NCBI GenBank assembly: GCA_902806565.1
Contig: CADCXA010000037.1
Coordinates: forward strand, 496,001 to 560,000
Direction: 5' to 3'
Origin: Hypoxylon rubiginosum
Taxonomy: Eukaryota > Ascomycota > Sordariomycetes > Xylariales > Hypoxylaceae
DNA length: 64,000 nucleotides
Positions 39,295 to 53,345 of the stretch are shown piece after piece (positions within the stretch are counted from its first letter, which is position 1; the number at the start of each line of letters is the position of its first letter). The notes below the pieces were generated by a model. The model saw only the letters and a program-made list of their open reading frames with translations. It had not been told where the DNA came from and did no database searches. Made by a program: the position numbers and the translations under genes.

Positions 39295-44317
<5,023 letters not shown>

Positions 44318-45163
44318 GACCGCGAGCGTTCCGGGACTTGGGGGGAAGCTTACGGAGACGGGTGGGGGGGAGTGAGGTAAGGAGTTAGATGGACGCAAGG
44401 ATGAATGCTGCAACTGAAGGGCTGCGTAAGCTTGTGTTGGGTTGCGGATAGATGATGCTAGGGAGTAAATTCCCATATTAATTTCCTAGCTAATATCCTT
44501 GTGAGGTAGTAACAATGCCACCGTGAGGCTCTGCCTTTGCTGGGAAAAGTCACATTGATGTCCTACAGAACCTATTCGCGTCATGATTCTATGTCTTCGG
44601 CTTATGGTATACCTGGATTGTTTCTCATCTCACATTCATCCTAGCCCAGTCTCAACCATCCCATACCTCATCTATAGTAGCCATTTGGCCCATAATTTCA
44701 ATCACATCTCGTTCTTCCGTTTTATCGCATGGTGGAGCTGCTAATCTGACTCGTCCTCAACATAGGAGCGCACGAGGAGTAGACTGCATCAGTTGGGTAT
44801 GAAGGACTGGTCTCACCCCTATTCATAGCCAAGGCCGAAGAGCTATATCCCTAGCAGCCACGTCGTACACATAATCAATTGTATACTTACCCAGGTCAGG
44901 TTGGCGCAGCTTTCATTAATCCGAAGGCGAACCTGTTAATTGGTACCCACGTCAACGACTTTTCTATTTCATACTCAGATGCCTACCTGTTACCAACACC
45001 GTTAACATAAATACTCTGCCTTGCTACCTAGACTGGCTAAACAATTCTCTGTCCAGCAATTCCATTACCTCCATCCCCTTTCCATCAACCACAATCGACG
45101 TCTAGGTGCGAAGATACACTGCCATATTCATTCATCAACATACCAAACATACTCGTCGCAATC
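44318..45163. other. Upstream region of the first CVNH gene
   Basis: No gene is visible. It carries the first copy of the promoter block shared by the four CVNH genes and the 3' end of GCN2. Confidence 0.5.
44810..45013 (+). promoter_or_regulatory. CVNH promoter block, copy 1
   Basis: TCTCACCCCTATTCATAG, then GGCCGAAGAGCTATATCCC and CCACGTCGTACAC, match blocks upstream of the other three CVNH genes. A TATA-like ATAAATA at 45007-45013 stands 157 bases before the ATG. Confidence 0.6.
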
Positions 45164-45655
45164 ATGAAGGCAACCTCGGCATCTCTTCTCGCAGCCTTGT
45201 TCCTGCCCGCCCTCCCCATCGTTTCGGCGCTGCCTAAAAACTCCGGCGAGTTTACATACGACGAAATCAGCCAGTACTATGCCGAGCGCCCCATCACCAA
45301 CACCTGCGGTCCCCTCAAGTTTCGAGATGGACACCTCTTAGACGCCAGCTGCGTCGAGCCCTACTGGTATCCCAATGGCTACAGTGTGAAAACCATCACC
45401 GCGTTCGACCTCAACGACTGTCTCGCCAACCGTTCGGGGGATCTGGAGTTCGCCCGGGGCGGCGACTTCGCCAGCTCCTGCCAGGACTGCGAGCTGTCGG
45501 ACGGGGGGGCGCTGACGTGCGAGTGCGCACCGGGCGGGGACCGGGTGACCAACCGGAGCACGTTCGATCTCGGCGACTGCCGGTATTTCCAGAACGTCGC
45601 GGGGACGCTGACTTGCAACGATGTCGGGACGGCTTGCCCAAACCCAGACAACTAG
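45164..45655 (+). CDS. Secreted cyanovirin-N homology (CVNH) protein, copy 1
   Basis: One exon, 163 residues. The N-terminus MKATSASLLAALFLPALPIVSA is a signal peptide with cleavage likely near VSA-LP. The mature part follows the CVNH pattern: CGPLKFRDGHLLDASC, then AFDLNDCLANRSGDLEF, FASSCQDCELSDGGALTCEC and TFDLGDCRYFQNVAGTLTC. The family fold binds oligosaccharides, commonly mannose-rich or GlcNAc-containing glycans. Most characterised fungal members lack a signal peptide, so secretion is notable. This copy has Cys in place of the Trp found in the last strand of the other three copies (DLGDC versus DL-D/N-[DN]W), and a longer cysteine-containing tail. Two glycosylation sequons (NRS) occur. 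Glycan specificity is unknown. Confidence 0.82.
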   Translation: MKATSASLLAALFLPALPIVSALPKNSGEFTYDEISQYYAERPITNTCGPLKFRDGHLLDASCVEPYWYPNGYSVKTITAFDLNDCLANRSGDLEFARGGDFASSCQDCELSDGGALTCECAPGGDRVTNRSTFDLGDCRYFQNVAGTLTCNDVGTACPNPDN

Positions 45656-45956
45656 GGGTTAGCAAGGACGTAAGATAATGTTGGAGAGCTCTAGTCTCAT
45701 CTGTGGTAGTAATATAGACTTGTCATATTGAGAATTAGTACGAGCTACTTGTGTTATGATTCCACGCCTTAGGCTATAACTCGTTCGGGCCAAGTGTTCG
45801 TCATTAGTTAGGTATGAAGGACCACCCGGTAGAATTACAATACGAATCTCGAGGTGCGAAATCGACGACGGTATTATGTATATAGCTCTTAATCTTCCTA
45901 CTAAGGCCCTGGATAATGGAATTACACATATAGGAAGAGGCCACTCTTCTTCTTGT

Positions 45957-46077
45957 CACATCCCCTGTTCAGAGGGATAGGGCCGAGCATGCCAGCAACG
46001 TCGTACACGCAGTCATTGCCTTGGTATTGCTTCCCTCCTAAAACTTAGGTCGATGCGTCATACCATTAATATAAATA
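45957..46077 (+). promoter_or_regulatory. CVNH promoter block, copy 2
   Basis: CACATCCCCTGTTCAGAGG, GGGCCGAGCATGCC and AACGTCGTACACGCAGTCATT are shared with the other copies. ATATAAATA at 46069-46077 is 152 bases before the ATG. Confidence 0.65.
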
Positions 46078-46220
46078 AACACTCCTCCGCCTTGCTCCTT
46101 GGACTTGCGAACAGTAATCTCTACCACCTCCAACTTATTCCCAACAACAGCAATCAACATCCCGCTGCGAGAAAGACTTGCAAGTAAATTTTACTGATAT
46201 ATCGAATATATCTGGTAACC

Positions 46221-46733
46221 ATGAAGGCAATCCTCGTATCCTTCCTCGTGGCGATCTTGCCCGCCCTCGCCACCATTGTTTCGGCGGTGCCTACTCCCAA
46301 CGACTCTACCACGGACTACGCCAAGCAGGCCATGTCTCTAAGCTGCAGCAACCTCAAGCTGCGAGACGGCCGCTTCCTCGATGCCGACTGCCTCGAACCC
46401 CCGTCGTGGCCCGCAGCCACTACGTTCTCCGCGGAACTCGACCTAAACAACTGCCTCGCGAATCGTTGGGGGCACCTAGATTACGCGTACCCTGGTGGCG
46501 CCTACGCCAACACGTGCTCTTTCTGTAGCCTAGAGGGCCCGAAGAACACATCGATAGGATGCATGTGCCCGGACGGCAAGAACACCGATCCCAACCGTCC
46601 CGACTTTTTCATAGGCTCCGCGTTCGATCTCGATGATTGGAAGTACATTCGCAACAGCCAGGGAACGCTGACTTGCGCGCCGTCCCCGACAAACATGACG
46701 AGGAGGGCATCTTTTCACCGTGGAAGATATTAG
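46221..46733 (+). CDS. Secreted CVNH protein, copy 2
   Basis: One exon, 170 residues. The signal peptide is MKAILVSFLVAILPALATIVSA. The CVNH core runs LSCSNLKLRDGRFLDADC, AELDLNNCLANRWGHLDY, ANTCSFCSLEGPKNTSIGCMC and AFDLDDWKYIRNSQGTLTC. Spacing and order of cysteines match copy 1 except for the missing extra pair. A short basic tail (MTRRASFHRGRY) follows. It lies about 1.06 kb downstream of copy 1 in the same direction, with the same promoter layout, so it is a tandem duplicate. Divergence of the coding sequence is large, which points to an old duplication. Likely an extracellular lectin; ligand not known. Confidence 0.82.
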   Translation: MKAILVSFLVAILPALATIVSAVPTPNDSTTDYAKQAMSLSCSNLKLRDGRFLDADCLEPPSWPAATTFSAELDLNNCLANRWGHLDYAYPGGAYANTCSFCSLEGPKNTSIGCMCPDGKNTDPNRPDFFIGSAFDLDDWKYIRNSQGTLTCAPSPTNMTRRASFHRGRY

Positions 46734-46993
46734 TCGTTTCCCTACGCTTTAGCTCGTGTCCTTGCTGTGGATGCCCGTTTTTCTAATCGTCATCGAGATG
46801 GCAGTGATGGAGAGGCAAATGCTTCGGAATCTAGACTATGTGGATAGACAGAGATACAAAATTCAAGTACTAGTCTATTGACTCCCATCAAATCATCTCC
46901 TCAGGTGTTTTAGGCCATAATTAATCCCAACTCAAAATCCACTCCCTAAAACACCTGCCTGCATCTCAGATGAGAAGCATTAAACCATCGCTA

Positions 46994-47207
46994 GTCTCAC
47001 CCCCTATTCAGAGGAACAGAGCCAAACATGACAACCACGTCGTACACACACAGTCATCACTTCGGCATGGCAGCGCTTACACCCCAAGACTCAGGTAAAT
47101 GCGTCAGTCGTTAGTCGAATTCGAAGCTATTGACGAGTACCCATATCATGTCAACAGCTTTTCTACTTCATACCCAACCTAAGCTGTTACCACCATTGAT
47201 ATAAATA
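46994..47207 (+). promoter_or_regulatory. CVNH promoter block, copy 3
   Basis: GTCTCACCCCCTATTCAGAGG, GAGCCAAACATG and ACCACGTCGTACAC match copies 2 and 4. ATATAAATACTCCTTGCCTT starts at 47199, 152 bases before the ATG. Confidence 0.65.
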
Positions 47208-47350
47208 CTCCTTGCCTTCCTCTCTGGATTTATGAACACTCCCCAACAACTCCACCATTACTACTCTTCGCTCACCATATCCAATTGACTTAATACGAAA
47301 ACATACTACAGCACTCACTCACTAACGTGACAAACACGTCCATCGCCGTC

Positions 47351-47839
47351 ATGAAGGCAACCTTCGCATCCCTCCTCGTGGCGTTCCTGCCCGCCCTCAC
47401 CATTGTTTCGGCGTTGCCCGACCCCAACAGCTCTACCGTCGTAGACTATTCCACGCAGGGAATATCCGTGAGCTGCAGCAACATCAGGCTGACTCACTCG
47501 CGTTACCTGTTTACCGAGTGCCTCGAAATCCCCGCGTGGCGGTCCTCACCCGCCGCCGTGATTTCCGCCTCGCTCGACCTGGACGAATGCTTCGCCAACT
47601 ACGAGGGGAATCTCGTCTACGCGTACCGCAACGGCCACTACTCCGGCTCGTGCGCTTGCGACGCGGTAGGCCTCAACAACGCGACGCTGTCGTGCATCTG
47701 CGACGGCAACGAGAATTACAGCGCGTTCGACCTCAATAATTGGCACTACATCCAGAACAACCTGGGAATACTGAATTGCATGCCGGTCCCGGCGATCAAG
47801 CCAAGGATGCCAAAGAGATATACCTCTTTTGCCGCCTAA
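47351..47839 (+). CDS. Secreted CVNH protein, copy 3
   Basis: One exon, 162 residues, from the ATG at 47351 (MKATFASLLVAFLPALTIVSA). The frame is open a little further upstream, but only through a GTG. The core reads VSCSNIRLTHSRYLFTEC, ASLDLDECFANYEGNLVY, SGSCACDAVGLNNATLSCIC and AFDLNNWHYIQNNLGILNC. Here the middle cysteine pair is CAC rather than CxxC, a small departure from copies 1, 2 and 4. Sequons NAT and NYS suggest glycosylation. The tail (KPRMPKRYTSFAA) resembles the tail of copy 2 in its basic character, so copies 2 and 3 may be closest. Confidence 0.82.
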   Translation: MKATFASLLVAFLPALTIVSALPDPNSSTVVDYSTQGISVSCSNIRLTHSRYLFTECLEIPAWRSSPAAVISASLDLDECFANYEGNLVYAYRNGHYSGSCACDAVGLNNATLSCICDGNENYSAFDLNNWHYIQNNLGILNCMPVPAIKPRMPKRYTSFAA

Positions 47840-48062
47840 GCTATTAGCCTTATTCTCGTGGAGATAGCAATGGTGGAGAGGCACAGTAGGTGAAGTGCTT
47901 TTAGGATTTTGGACGAACATTTCTGAATCTAGACTGCTTAGATATACAAATACAAAGACTAGTCTATTAAACATACCAGATCATCTCAGGCGTTCCTGTC
48001 CGTAATCAAGCCTGACTCGCAATCTCCTCTGCCTCTCAGGTGACAGCCATTAAACCATCACT

Positions 48063-48248
48063 TGTCTCACCCCCTATTTAGAGGACCGGGGCCGAGAGAC
48101 TATATCCCTGACGGCCATGTCGCACACGTAGTCATTACCCATGTATTGTTTGCTTCTCAGTACTCATTAAAGTCGTTAATGAGAGGTATCCATGTCAACG
48201 ACTACTCTACTTCATACCCAACCTACCTCCTAAGCTGTTACATAAATG
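48063..48248 (+). promoter_or_regulatory. CVNH promoter block, copy 4
   Basis: GTCTCACCCCCTATTTAGAGG, GGGGCCGAGAGACTATATCCC and GGCCATGTCGCACACGTAGTCATT match the other copies, and most closely 1 and 3. ATAAATG at 48242-48248 lies 117 bases before the ATG. Confidence 0.65.
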
Positions 48249-48358
48249 CCTACTCTCCCGCCTCGCTCCCTAGACTTACGGACAATCTCGTTCCAACCCA
48301 ACAACTCCATCGCCTCTACCCCCATCTTAGAAAATACCAACCAACACCACAGCTAACC

Positions 48359-48826
48359 ATGAAGGTGACCTTCACATCTCTCCTCGCAGCATTCCTACCC
48401 GCCCTCACCACCACCGTCTCCGCCGACCCCAGCCCGGACTACTCCAGACAGCCCATATCCGCGAGCTGCATGACCATCGCCCTAAAAGACAACCACGTCC
48501 TCAGCGCCACCTGCCTCGCGCCATCCTCCTCCGGCTCCTCCGCCGGCCCCAGCTACGCCAGCTCGGACCTCGAGCTGGACGGCTGCCTGGCCAACTACGC
48601 GGGAGACCTGAGCTGGCCGGCGGGCGACGGCGGCGGCGGCGGCGGTTTCTCTAGCACTTGTGATGATTGCTACCTGGACGGCTCGGCCGGCACGACGTTG
48701 ACGTGCGAGTGCGGTAGGGGCGGGGATGAGGGGGGGACCAAGCGGAGCACGTGGGATCTCGACGACTGGAAGTACGTCCAGAACACGAGGGGCGCGCTGA
48801 CTTGCTCGTACGATGACAAGCCCTAA
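48359..48826 (+). CDS. Secreted CVNH protein, copy 4
   Basis: One exon, 155 residues, from the ATG at 48359 (MKVTFTSLLAAFLPALTTTVSADPSPD). The open frame extends about 100 codons upstream, but that part is promoter sequence shared with the other copies, so the upstream start is rejected. The core is ASCMTIALKDNHVLSATC, DLELDGCLANYAGDLSW, FSSTCDDCYLDGSAGTTLTCEC and TWDLDDWKYVQNTRGALTC. Low-complexity inserts of Ser/Gly (PSSSGSSAGPS and DGGGGGGFS) sit in loops. GC content is highest of the four copies. Confidence 0.83.
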   Translation: MKVTFTSLLAAFLPALTTTVSADPSPDYSRQPISASCMTIALKDNHVLSATCLAPSSSGSSAGPSYASSDLELDGCLANYAGDLSWPAGDGGGGGGFSSTCDDCYLDGSAGTTLTCECGRGGDEGGTKRSTWDLDDWKYVQNTRGALTCSYDDKP

Positions 48827-49517
48827 GCTGGGTACCTACTGCGCCTAAAGGATGGCGACAGAAGTACGGTTGGTCTCTTCGCCGCATAAGCTTTTCGTGT
48901 GCCTGCTGTCTGTGGGATGTTCGTCTTCTAATTATCGAGATATAGCAGCAGTAGCAGTGATGGCGGAAGGCAACAATGTGTGTGAAGTGCTCTTGGGCTT
49001 TCGGGTAACGACTTCTTCGGCCTAGCCGCAGGCAGAATTATCCAGACTAGACCGAAATGCAAAGACCAGTCGATGCGCCCATACCACATTATATCCTTAG
49101 ATGTTCGTGACCGCAGCCAGCCTCGACTTAGATTTCACTTACCTCTTTAGTGACAAGCAATAGACAAGTAGGATCTATATAAAACACACATAACTCTAGA
49201 TACGTACCTAGTCAAGATATCGATGAGTTTTCAAAAGTTGAATTATATATCAAGCCCCCGAGTCTATAAGAGTCGAGACGACCTGCTTCTTCGCAGTTTG
49301 AAGATTAACTACGACGGGAGATAGCAGACATTCTACCCGCTGTGCTCTAGTTACCCACACAATTGTTTCCTCTTCTTTTTTTTTCATCCCTTCCTTAAGA
49401 TTACAAGGCCCCAAGCCAAATGTTGTACAATAGAGTAGGTAGGTAGTATATATATCACAATGCTCATAGATGATCAGTTAGAACCTCTATTCCCCTCCCC
49501 TCGTACCTCCGGCGGCC
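48827..49517. other. 3' flank of the CVNH cluster
   Basis: At 49085-49170 the sequence repeats, in diverged form, the block that precedes the promoter of copies 3 and 4 (ATATCCTTAGATGTTCGTGACCG... then GTGACAAGCAATAGAC). It is followed by no further CVNH gene, so it marks the broken end of the last duplicated unit. A partial TACCTAG lies at about 49205. No gene is visible. Confidence 0.45.
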
Positions 49518-52500
49518 TTAGCTTTCCTTGTTAGACTTGCCGTCCCCTTCCTCGCCGGGGTCATCATGATCCGTATTTTCGTCTTGGTGCTCGTCATCCG
49601 CTAGTTCGGCTTCTTGCGGAGTAGGATCCTGCTGCTGCTGCTGCTTCCCGAAGACATCTGTCCACTTCAGGGCCCCGTCGTGGCCCACGACGTGGACCGG
49701 ACGCCACTTGGCCCTGGCGGTCTCGCTGGCGCGGAACTTGCGGCCGGACTGGGTGCGCTCCTGGAGCTGACCGCGGAACATCTTATACCACATCGAGTCG
49801 CGCTCGCCCGTGTCCTCGAACACTTTGCGGCGCCTGGTTCGACACTGCTGGTAGATGGTCTGCGCACGCTTGCCCGTGATCTCCTCGATATTGTACTCTA
49901 CCGTCCATTTATCCGACTTCTTTAGGTTTACAGGTCTTGGCACGTACGCGTCGTTAACCTTGTTCTTGATGGTCAGGACCATGCCTAGCAGGTTCGGGTC
50001 GCCCTCCTCTTCGATTGGCTCTGCTGCCTCCTTAGACGTCTCCGATGCCTCTGACGACGATTGTGGCGAGGACTCCTGTGCATTTCCCGCTTCCTCTAGT
50101 TGTGGCTCGATCGACTTGGTCTCTTCTTCCGCCTGTGGCCTGCTCTCTACGTCCGGTCCTGGGCTAATCTCACCCTCGAGAAGAGTCGTCTGTTCATTTC
50201 TAGAGCGAGCAATGAGCTCGCCAAGGATTCGCTCGAACTCTTTCAGTTTAGACGAATTGTCTAATGAGCTGCCAGCTTCCTCCGATACAGTTTTTTCGTC
50301 GATTCTCCGAGCCATCTTGACGATAAGGTCTTTCAACGGCGACATAGTTGAAGTAGCATTCGGGTCTTTCTTAGTCCTTCCAGCTTCTACTCCATCGTCC
50401 ATTTCATCCATCTCGTCATCCTCTTCTTCTCCCTCCTCTTCCTCCATCACTTCAGAGGTCTTGATGTGGGCTTCTTCTGACGGCTTCTCGCCAATCAAAA
50501 CTGTTGCGCGTGCCTCCGTAATAGATGACTCCTCGGGTGCAGCATTGTTGACTGATTGGTCATCTTCTCGCGTCTGGTATCCTGGAGACTCTATAGTTAC
50601 AGCACGTTCGCCGCCTTGGCCACTGCCGGTATCTGATTGTGCTGTTGACTTGTTATTATCTTTTTCGTCGATCTTTGGTTGATCGCCGGCATCTAGAATT
50701 TCCGTAGACTCTTCCTGTCCTTCGTCGATCTGAGGCTGGTCACTTTCTAGTTTGCTGCCCGATACCGGTTGCTCGTCACTGGATGGTTCTGATTCCAATT
50801 CTGATTTCTCTTGAGAGATTGAGATTGAGTCATCTTCATCGGCTGGTGCGGCTTCCTCTGTTGGTGGATCGAGTGAATGGTCTGCAAGTTCGGAGGGATT
50901 TTCGCTAGTGAGGGCACTCAGCAAAGCGTCGACATATCCCCGAGCTTCCGTGGAAGACCTAGCATGAAGAAGTCCACTCTGTTCCAGCGAATCTTCGATG
51001 GCCTCTCGCACAGCCCCAACCCCTAATTCGTCGTCATCCACCGCGTCCTCTACCATTTGACGAACTTCTTTCCAGGCTGCCAGACTAGATGTTACCTGGG
51101 CTACGGAAGATTCTTCGATGTCTTCGTCCTCGTCTGCAGCATCGTCATTCTCCACGACGGATTCCGAATCAGCATCAGCTTCGTCCTTTACTATGCCAAG
51201 CATCTCCTTTTCAAACGCTTCGATAGATGCCTTGCCAGCACTTTGAACCTCCTCTATGTCCTCGTTCGTTACGGGCTTCGCAAAGATGTACATGAATGGT
51301 GCTCCTACCGATGTCCTCGTCTCGAAGTGTAACCGTAGAGACTGTTCCGGGAACCGCTTAGCTGCCCGGTCTAGAACGTCATTGAGCAGCGAAAGGCTGA
51401 GCATGTATTCCTTGTTACCGAGGGTTTTATTAGATGTGCCGTGCAACGCAAGATCCATCTCCTCCAAAGGGATATACTGAAAACCAAAGATGCGCTGGGT
51501 GTTGTGAAATGCAACGAATATACCGTCCATTCGCCCCATGCGGACCTGCAAGGAGTACTTCAAGAATGCAGCACGAATCATATCGTAATATTCTCGTTCG
51601 AAAGATTCCCACTGGCCAAATCTTTGACGGATCTCGTAGCCTAGGCCCTTTTGAAACCCTTTTGCATCCATACGGATGGATACAACAGCGCGTGTTTTTA
51701 GGTCGAACATGCCCGTCCCGGGAATTCTCGGATCGTAGGCATCTAATTGCGAACGCATCATAAAGTCGCCAAAACTAGTGTAGTGAAAGGCTTCTTCGGC
51801 ATTTCGTTCTTCCTCGGTAATCTGATCCGAATTGATATGCCTGTATCTCTCGTATTCCTCCTTATTCAGAGTGAGGAGTTTTTCCATGGACTTCCCAAGC
51901 ATGCTCAAGATATTTGCCGTATCGAATTCTTTATCGGCATCGATAGCGTAGGTACCATCTTTCCAATGTAGGAATACTGCCGCCGGGCCACGCATGATTT
52001 CTGTGAACCGGACGGAGTCTGGTGTGAACAGCTTTGACAGCATGCTGGCGTTGATTTCTCGCCAGGATGACAAGAGAAAATGGAAGTGGGAAAGCATGGA
52101 TGTCATGCTAGAGGTCGATCCTGTGTATTTTTTGCCGTGCTCCTTTGCGATGCGGATTAAATTGGTGTCTTTAGAAGATGTTACATACTGCTTCAAGGCG
52201 TTGAAATCAAATTCCTGAATCGGCATGATCTCTGAAAGGTATGGATCGAAATTATAGACCTTCGATCTGGGATCTTGGAGACAATACACTCCGGGATTGA
52301 ACAGAACTCTATCCAGTCCGTAAGATAATGACGGAACTGGGATTCGGTCGGTTTCAATAGGGTCAACTTGTAGGCCTTTAGTGGAGATGGTGTTGATAGC
52401 TAAATCGTTCTTTTTCCATGCTACTCGTACTTGAGGGTCAATATTGAATGGTTGACCGAAAATATTATAGTCACCCCGAACTTCCCCAGACACGGTTGGA

Positions 52501-53345
52501 GGCCCAGTGGTTTCACTGTTTATGCCGTTGTCACTTAGACTCAGATTTCGCAGTGACTCTCGCAAAGCAGCGCTTTTGAGCTCTTTTGTAGACTGTCGAG
52601 CCCCTGCGTCTCCCTTTGATCTTACACGTCCTGCTAATCTTGTCGGCGCGGACCTTCTAGACCGGCCCGCCTTGGATTTCGAGCTGACGGGTATGTCTTT
52701 TGGAGTTGCTGACGACGTTGGAGTAGCATGTGCGGTGGCCTTATGAATTTTATCAACGTGTTTCCGCTTCGAAGTCTTTTTCGAGTCCCCTTTTCCGGAA
52801 GTATCCTGAGACGCCGGCGCCACTTCATTGTTGGCTTCGGTCGGGTTGTCAGCTTTGGTCGGTTTCGTGCTAGACTTGGATTTAGCCTTAGCCTTGGTCT
52901 TAGGCTTCGCTGTAGGTCCCGATCCTGCTTGATCGACCTTATTAGTAGACTTGCCGATCTGGTCAACATTGATATTCTGAGAGGCGAGGACGTTCTTTAG
53001 AGCTTGGAGTGCTCCTTGCAGAACTTGTAATTGGCGTGCGTCCTCGCTTCGGGAGTCAGCCTTTTTTATCTGCTGCTTTTTCCGTTTATTCTCTCTCTTT
53101 TTCTCAGTGGCATCCTTTGCCGGAACTTCTGTGCTTTGGGATCCATCGTCGGCAGGTGTTGAGGTCTGGGTACTCGTGGCAGGCCGGCGGGATGTGCTTG
53201 TTATTGTTAAAGGTCGGCGTTGATTGCTAGAGATGGAGGTGGGATGGAGCGCAAGCAATCTCGACGGATGGGAAGCCGCAAGACATGAAGCGCATACATA
53301 AGAAGTTCCCATACGGTGTGCACTTCGGCTGCTCAATTGAAGCAT
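49518..53345 (-). CDS. PET127: Pet127-like mitochondrial RNA-processing protein
   Basis: One exon of 1275 residues on the minus strand, start at 53345. The N-terminus (MLQLSSRSAHRMGTSYVCASCLAASHPSRLL) is basic and hydroxylated, fitting a mitochondrial leader. A lysine-rich linker with KSKSSTKPTK-type repeats follows. The conserved region, about 290-720, holds NIFGQPFNIDPQVRVAWKKNDL, GLDRVLFNPGVYCLQDPRSKVYNFDPYL, GPAAVFLHWKDGTYAIDADKEFD and YDPRIPGTGMFDLKTRAVVSIRMDAKGF. The latter carries the Asp/Glu-Lys-type core that has been likened to PD-(D/E)XK nucleases. In yeast Pet127 is a mitochondrial membrane protein needed for 5' trimming and turnover of mitochondrial RNAs. The 430 residues after the core are extremely acidic and probably disordered; a basic block (about 1150-1250) ends the protein. 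Much longer than the yeast protein because of these extensions. Confidence 0.9.
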   Translation of the reverse strand: MLQLSSRSAHRMGTSYVCASCLAASHPSRLLALHPTSISSNQRRPLTITSTSRRPATSTQTSTPADDGSQSTEVPAKDATEKKRENKRKKQQIKKADSRSEDARQLQVLQGALQALKNVLASQNINVDQIGKSTNKVDQAGSGPTAKPKTKAKAKSKSSTKPTKADNPTEANNEVAPASQDTSGKGDSKKTSKRKHVDKIHKATAHATPTSSATPKDIPVSSKSKAGRSRRSAPTRLAGRVRSKGDAGARQSTKELKSAALRESLRNLSLSDNGINSETTGPPTVSGEVRGDYNIFGQPFNIDPQVRVAWKKNDLAINTISTKGLQVDPIETDRIPVPSLSYGLDRVLFNPGVYCLQDPRSKVYNFDPYLSEIMPIQEFDFNALKQYVTSSKDTNLIRIAKEHGKKYTGSTSSMTSMLSHFHFLLSSWREINASMLSKLFTPDSVRFTEIMRGPAAVFLHWKDGTYAIDADKEFDTANILSMLGKSMEKLLTLNKEEYERYRHINSDQITEEERNAEEAFHYTSFGDFMMRSQLDAYDPRIPGTGMFDLKTRAVVSIRMDAKGFQKGLGYEIRQRFGQWESFEREYYDMIRAAFLKYSLQVRMGRMDGIFVAFHNTQRIFGFQYIPLEEMDLALHGTSNKTLGNKEYMLSLSLLNDVLDRAAKRFPEQSLRLHFETRTSVGAPFMYIFAKPVTNEDIEEVQSAGKASIEAFEKEMLGIVKDEADADSESVVENDDAADEDEDIEESSVAQVTSSLAAWKEVRQMVEDAVDDDELGVGAVREAIEDSLEQSGLLHARSSTEARGYVDALLSALTSENPSELADHSLDPPTEEAAPADEDDSISISQEKSELESEPSSDEQPVSGSKLESDQPQIDEGQEESTEILDAGDQPKIDEKDNNKSTAQSDTGSGQGGERAVTIESPGYQTREDDQSVNNAAPEESSITEARATVLIGEKPSEEAHIKTSEVMEEEEGEEEDDEMDEMDDGVEAGRTKKDPNATSTMSPLKDLIVKMARRIDEKTVSEEAGSSLDNSSKLKEFERILGELIARSRNEQTTLLEGEISPGPDVESRPQAEEETKSIEPQLEEAGNAQESSPQSSSEASETSKEAAEPIEEEGDPNLLGMVLTIKNKVNDAYVPRPVNLKKSDKWTVEYNIEEITGKRAQTIYQQCRTRRRKVFEDTGERDSMWYKMFRGQLQERTQSGRKFRASETARAKWRPVHVVGHDGALKWTDVFGKQQQQQDPTPQEAELADDEHQDENTDHDDPGEEGDGKSNKES

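Follow-up and report, generated by a model that had tools for sequence, protein, structure and literature searches.

A tandem array of four CVNH genes with predicted secretion leaders in Hypoxylon rubiginosum

Introduction

In this work, a tandem array of four genes for CVNH (cyanovirin-N-like) proteins is described in Hypoxylon rubiginosum, on a stretch of 64,000 nt (assembly GCA_902806565.1, contig CADCXA010000037.1, positions 496,001-560,000, forward strand) that is called the window below. Among the described fungal CVNH proteins, SsCVNH (SS1G_02904) of Sclerotinia sclerotiorum was reported to have a signal peptide and a hyphal-tip location; when the gene was silenced, virulence, growth rate and sclerotia were reduced (PMC4632110; sources are cited by PMC identifier, each for excerpts of its text). 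According to the same source, fungal CVNHs had shown no secretion signals in earlier work. The preliminary description of the window followed this older view when it set the array against fungal CVNHs that are mostly cytosolic, a contrast that is out of date given secreted SsCVNH and the secreted CVNH proteins of Colletotrichum (PMC5915685). MoCVNH3 of Magnaporthe oryzae is listed without a signal peptide (PMC13027065). Microvirin is a cyanobacterial mannose lectin, and the CVNH protein of N. crassa is described as binding mannose through a site in domain B (PMC6359319). CVNH proteins also appear among effector candidates (PMC4039746, PMC5301223, PMC11766245); in the excerpts of the last, a CVNH gene was mainly up-regulated in one peach cultivar and down-regulated in another. 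In the excerpts of PMC3828140, CVNH is one item in a list of domains. Among the titles listed in literature searches on fungal CVNH expansion, paralogs and secretion, none concerned a tandem CVNH array.

We propose, with a probability of about 0.6, that the four tandem genes encode secreted CVNH proteins, rich in cysteine and with one domain each, that act as extracellular CVN-fold binders, are probably co-regulated and probably have a ligand other than the classical one.

The CVNH gene array

The observation of a four-gene cluster was confirmed: the genes stand in tandem, are well formed and encode proteins of a known kind. Four single-exon open reading frames (ORFs) lie on the plus strand, with a DNA repeat spacing of 0.99-1.13 kb:

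45164..45655, plus strand: array gene 1, leader and CVNH domain, 163 aa, 10 cysteines
46221..46733, plus strand: array gene 2, leader and CVNH domain (43.1 bits), 170 aa, 8 cysteines, H. texense orthologue by tree
47351..47839, plus strand: array gene 3, leader and CVNH domain (33.6 bits), 162 aa, 8 cysteines
48359..48826, plus strand: array gene 4, leader and CVNH domain, 155 aa, 8 cysteines, H. texense orthologue by tree

The starts given in the preliminary description (45164, 46221, 47351 and 48359) were borne out, and all four proteins matched Pfam CVNH (PF08881) above its curated cut-off (33.6-54.0 bits vs 24.5). No second Pfam family exceeded its cut-off in any of them, and a LysM domain beside CVNH, as in the CVNH-LysM proteins, is not present. 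Hydropathy and alignment showed a hydrophobic N-terminal leader in each protein, followed by a single CVNH stretch. This is the layout of SsCVNH and agrees with the signal peptides claimed earlier. The CVN fold was found by structure prediction in both copies modelled (1 and 4 of the four), with its two pseudo-repeats. The positions equivalent to C8, C22, C58 and C73 of cyanovirin-N are cysteine in all four aligned proteins; in cyanovirin-N these cysteines are paired.

A profile search of the assembly (48.3 Mb, 70 contigs) gave at least ten CVNH places, namely four in the array, two in C31 and one each in C25, C33, C44 and C67. The view of a locally expanded set is supported. C33 and C44 each hold one intact leader-bearing CVNH gene, unlinked to the array.

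Flanking regions of the CVNH genes

The regions upstream of the four genes contain the following features:

44780..45163, plus strand: upstream region of gene 1, resembling the upstream regions of genes 2-4 and of the unlinked paralogues C33 and C44
44999..45025, plus strand: 27-bp TATA-like stretch, identical upstream of the C44 paralogue
45795..46220, plus strand: upstream region of gene 2
46955..47350, plus strand: upstream region of gene 3, with a conserved block at 47150-47181
48015..48358, plus strand: upstream region of gene 4, with a conserved block at 48194-48225

By comparing these regions pairwise with shuffles that keep base composition only, they were found to be alike in all six array pairs (scores 74-172 vs shuffle maxima of at most 45), with an identity of 0.55-0.71 over 116-405 columns; that of the coding regions is 0.57-0.65. 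The C33 upstream region is alike to those of all four array genes, and that of C44 is clearly alike to that of gene 1 (84 vs a shuffle maximum of 51). Four neighbouring genes show no such likeness to the array upstream (10 to 200 of 200 shuffles reached the score; 16 pairs), and the upstream region of C67 is not clearly alike to that of any array gene (4 to 153 of 200 shuffles). Downstream, all three pairs within genes 2, 3 and 4 are alike, and none of the three pairs of gene 1 with genes 2-4 is. At the level of these alignments it could be shown that upstream region, leader and mature domain were duplicated together, both in tandem and to other contigs.

Allowing up to three mismatches, the 27-bp stretch occurs at two places genome-wide (gene 1 and the C44 gene). 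A 32-bp block occurs at two places (genes 3 and 4), and a 21-bp block at ten, three of them in the array and the other seven all with three mismatches. Used as a DNA query, the upstream region of gene 1 matched only itself and missed the likeness seen in pairwise alignment. A leader or promoter common to unrelated genes was also considered and found unsupported: the leader search gave five places, all CVNH genes, at a limited sensitivity that missed array gene 2.

Relatives of the array proteins

Two protein profile searches listed 10 and 16 proteins, and members can be missed by such a search (P0007 is in the first list and not in the second). In the larger list 15 of the 16 proteins carry a species name, in every case Hypoxylon, and one is nameless; no Sclerotinia protein was among the matches of either search. 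The family is perhaps Hypoxylon-specific, in the sense that these searches have so far seen it only in Hypoxylon. The closest proteins bear the name Hypoxylon rubiginosum (F4820DRAFT), with 99% identity for copy 2. Since the F4821DRAFT proteins, under the same species name, are much less alike in the tree, the species label is not firm.

In this tree (21 proteins, midpoint root, 8 of 18 inner branches weak), copies 2 and 4 each group with a different H. texense protein (97/94 and 98/97, respectively), while the C44-type group comprises eight proteins (100/100). As copies 2 and 4 pair with separate H. texense orthologues, their divergence predates that species split.

The sugar pocket and the ligand

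Five domain-B residues were compared (N42, D44, N53, E56 and T57), chosen partly after PMC9725752. D44, N53 and E56 are replaced in all four proteins, N42 is kept, and position 57 is S or T, so the residue set of the mannose lectins is incomplete; microvirin and the N. crassa CVNH retain all five. The classical Man-alpha1,2-Man is probably not the ligand, judging from these replacements. On the other hand, all four proteins have N42, G45 and N93 in the two hairpins of the pocket. Diversified specificity of the copies, as proposed earlier, is not supported, because these replacements are common to all four and the suggested comparison of glycan-binding pockets gave no excess variability at the cyanovirin sugar sites (0.607 vs 0.629 in the other columns; 6348 of 10000 permutations reached the difference). 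Faster evolution of the pocket was likewise left without support by these values.

These replacements would also fit a family in which only the CVN scaffold persists, sugar binding having been lost in favour of another extracellular task (a protein-binding effector, an antimicrobial or a signalling protein). The extra cysteines and a CVNH-domain identity of just 0.28-0.45 among the four point the same way. However, the three invariant residues, though maybe structural, argue against this loss, and the remaining pocket could bind another sugar; we consider it rather unlikely. Still less probable is a set of ordinary CVNH lectins of the mannose type, whose targets after secretion would be fungal mannoproteins or the high-mannose glycans of plants. 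The CVNH profile and fold, together with N42 and the S or T at position 57, are what such lectins would have, but all four have lost most of the contacts listed for the high-affinity site, and in domain B of cyanovirin-N every known replacement of a binding residue lowered dimannose affinity (PMC9725752).

Divergence of the copies

Across the six array pairs, the leader identity is 0.59-0.86, well above that of the CVNH domain. By NG86, the domain has a ratio of nonsynonymous to synonymous substitution (Ka/Ks) of 0.66-1.02. For the leader, five of the six pairs have 0.12-0.37; the exception is genes 2/3 with 2.03 (Ks 0.06). The G+C content at third codon positions (GC3) is 0.73-0.85, and because this depresses Ks, the ratios are biased upward and give no evidence of positive selection. 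The leaders of genes 2 and 3 (46221-46290 and 47351-47420) have a Ks of 0.06 vs 0.67 in the domains, over 21 codons only. Gene conversion between the two genes in this part is possible, as far as 21 codons can tell.

Compared with the F4820 strain, the leaders of the window strain differ at 7/88 positions and the mature parts at 4/562 (gaps included; Fisher p 1.4e-4). Copy 4 accounts for five of the seven differences between leaders, and its alignment requires a gap there. The C44 and C33 proteins, which are outside this count, differ from their database counterparts at 1/152 and 2/145 positions, none in the leader. The mature parts look conserved within the species, as would follow from an old divergence that is now held, in this comparison of two strains. 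An effector cluster that evolves fast in an ongoing arms race against hosts or competitors, with positive selection on the mature domains, could explain why Ka/Ks is higher in domain than leader, but the GC3 inflation, the genes 2/3 exception, the fewer strain differences in mature parts and the unaccelerated pocket columns make it very improbable.

Other CVNH genes and neighbouring genes

Three of the CVNH places have no evident leader by reading of the sequence, two in C31 and one in C25. Those of C31 (L011:4602-5348) are adjacent CVNH blocks, and the C25 gene (L013:4616-5626) encodes a CVNH-LysM-like protein of 336 aa. C67 (L009:4848-5276) is a degraded leader-bearing copy with ATA as first codon, one in-frame TAA and an AT-rich flank; P0013, from another Hypoxylon strain, is an intact relative. 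Five relatives of the C44 gene (L010:4847-5305), P0017-P0020 and P0023, carry a KR dipeptide just after the leader (PSEKR or PSQKR), a possible Kex2 site; the window strain's own C44 copy has KL there.

The array lies far from the ends of its contig (1.17 Mb), between two genes that serve as landmarks only:

39295..44317, plus strand: left neighbour, GCN2-type eIF2-alpha kinase, three ORFs
49518..53345, minus strand: right neighbour, Pet127

The left neighbour has RWD and kinase domains, a HisRS-like match below the cut-off and an anticodon-binding domain, and this order of domains suggests the name GCN2. The H. texense orthologue of gene 4 (P0011), a 154-aa CVNH protein, is labelled "eukaryotic translation initiation factor 2-alpha kinase". 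This label may have spilled over from an adjacent GCN2 gene, which would be a hint of synteny and not a test of it.

Discussion

The sequences show that the duplicated unit comprised upstream region, leader and mature domain, with copies placed both next to each other and on other contigs. Copies 2 and 4 were apart before the H. texense split, and the mature part diverged strongly while leader and upstream blocks stayed recognisable. We hypothesize that the four genes are switched on together and that their products, held rigid by about four disulfides, exit through the usual secretory pathway. Outside the cell, they may bind glycans or glycoproteins through the CVN fold, at the hyphal surface or in plant tissue, as proposed for SsCVNH; the functional reading is drawn by analogy with that protein. 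Of the role outside the cell that was claimed earlier, the extracellular part is likely, but whether host, competitor or the fungus's own wall is the target cannot be told. H. rubiginosum inhibits the ash dieback fungus, an effect that is attributed to phomopsidin compounds and not to proteins (PMC7195382).

Several points weigh against the proposal of co-regulated extracellular binders. The four proteins are probably secreted, a call made by hydropathy and alignment, and their expression, secretion and binding are predicted. Sugar binding itself is unproven, given the replaced pocket residues. Part of the similarity upstream may have survived from the duplication itself, as genes 2-4 resemble one another downstream as well, though gene 1 does not resemble them there. 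Moreover, the C44 upstream region is only marginally alike to that of gene 3 (41 vs a shuffle maximum of 40) and not to those of genes 2 and 4 (28 and 27 of 200 shuffles reached the score), and restriction to Hypoxylon is not proven, since the protein search misses members.

A more far-reaching form of the proposal, which we offer only tentatively, is a Hypoxylon-specific extracellular system with a repurposed CVN fold and a shared promoter-plus-leader cassette, in which every one of the disulfide-rich proteins gave up the mannose pocket for a separate new ligand that is now conserved. If the four are indeed co-expressed extracellular binders with different ligands, they would offer a small natural set in which to follow changes of specificity within the CVN fold. 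What is added to the preliminary description is that upstream region and leader travelled with the gene, that the family has so far been found only in Hypoxylon, and that key mannose-pocket residues are gone in all four proteins.

By comparing the array with known systems, SsCVNH is alike in its signal peptide, single CVNH domain, length of 153 aa, 10 cysteines and predicted CVN fold, and is found at hyphal tips. It differs in that a single gene is described, whose homologues at the threshold of the authors were confined to Sclerotinia and Botryotinia, with no tandem array in the described parts of PMC4632110. The Colletotrichum proteins are likewise small, secreted and without close relatives beyond one genus, but that genus is another one, and no tandem arrangement is described in the excerpts of PMC5915685. 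Microvirin (PDB 2y1s) differs by its intact set of five pocket residues, and MoCVNH3/CVNH-LysM of Magnaporthe oryzae (PDB 5c8o, 2l9y) by the LysM domain beside CVNH. Secreted single-domain fungal CVNHs were thus already known, and the present finding extends this class to Hypoxylon, with local duplication.
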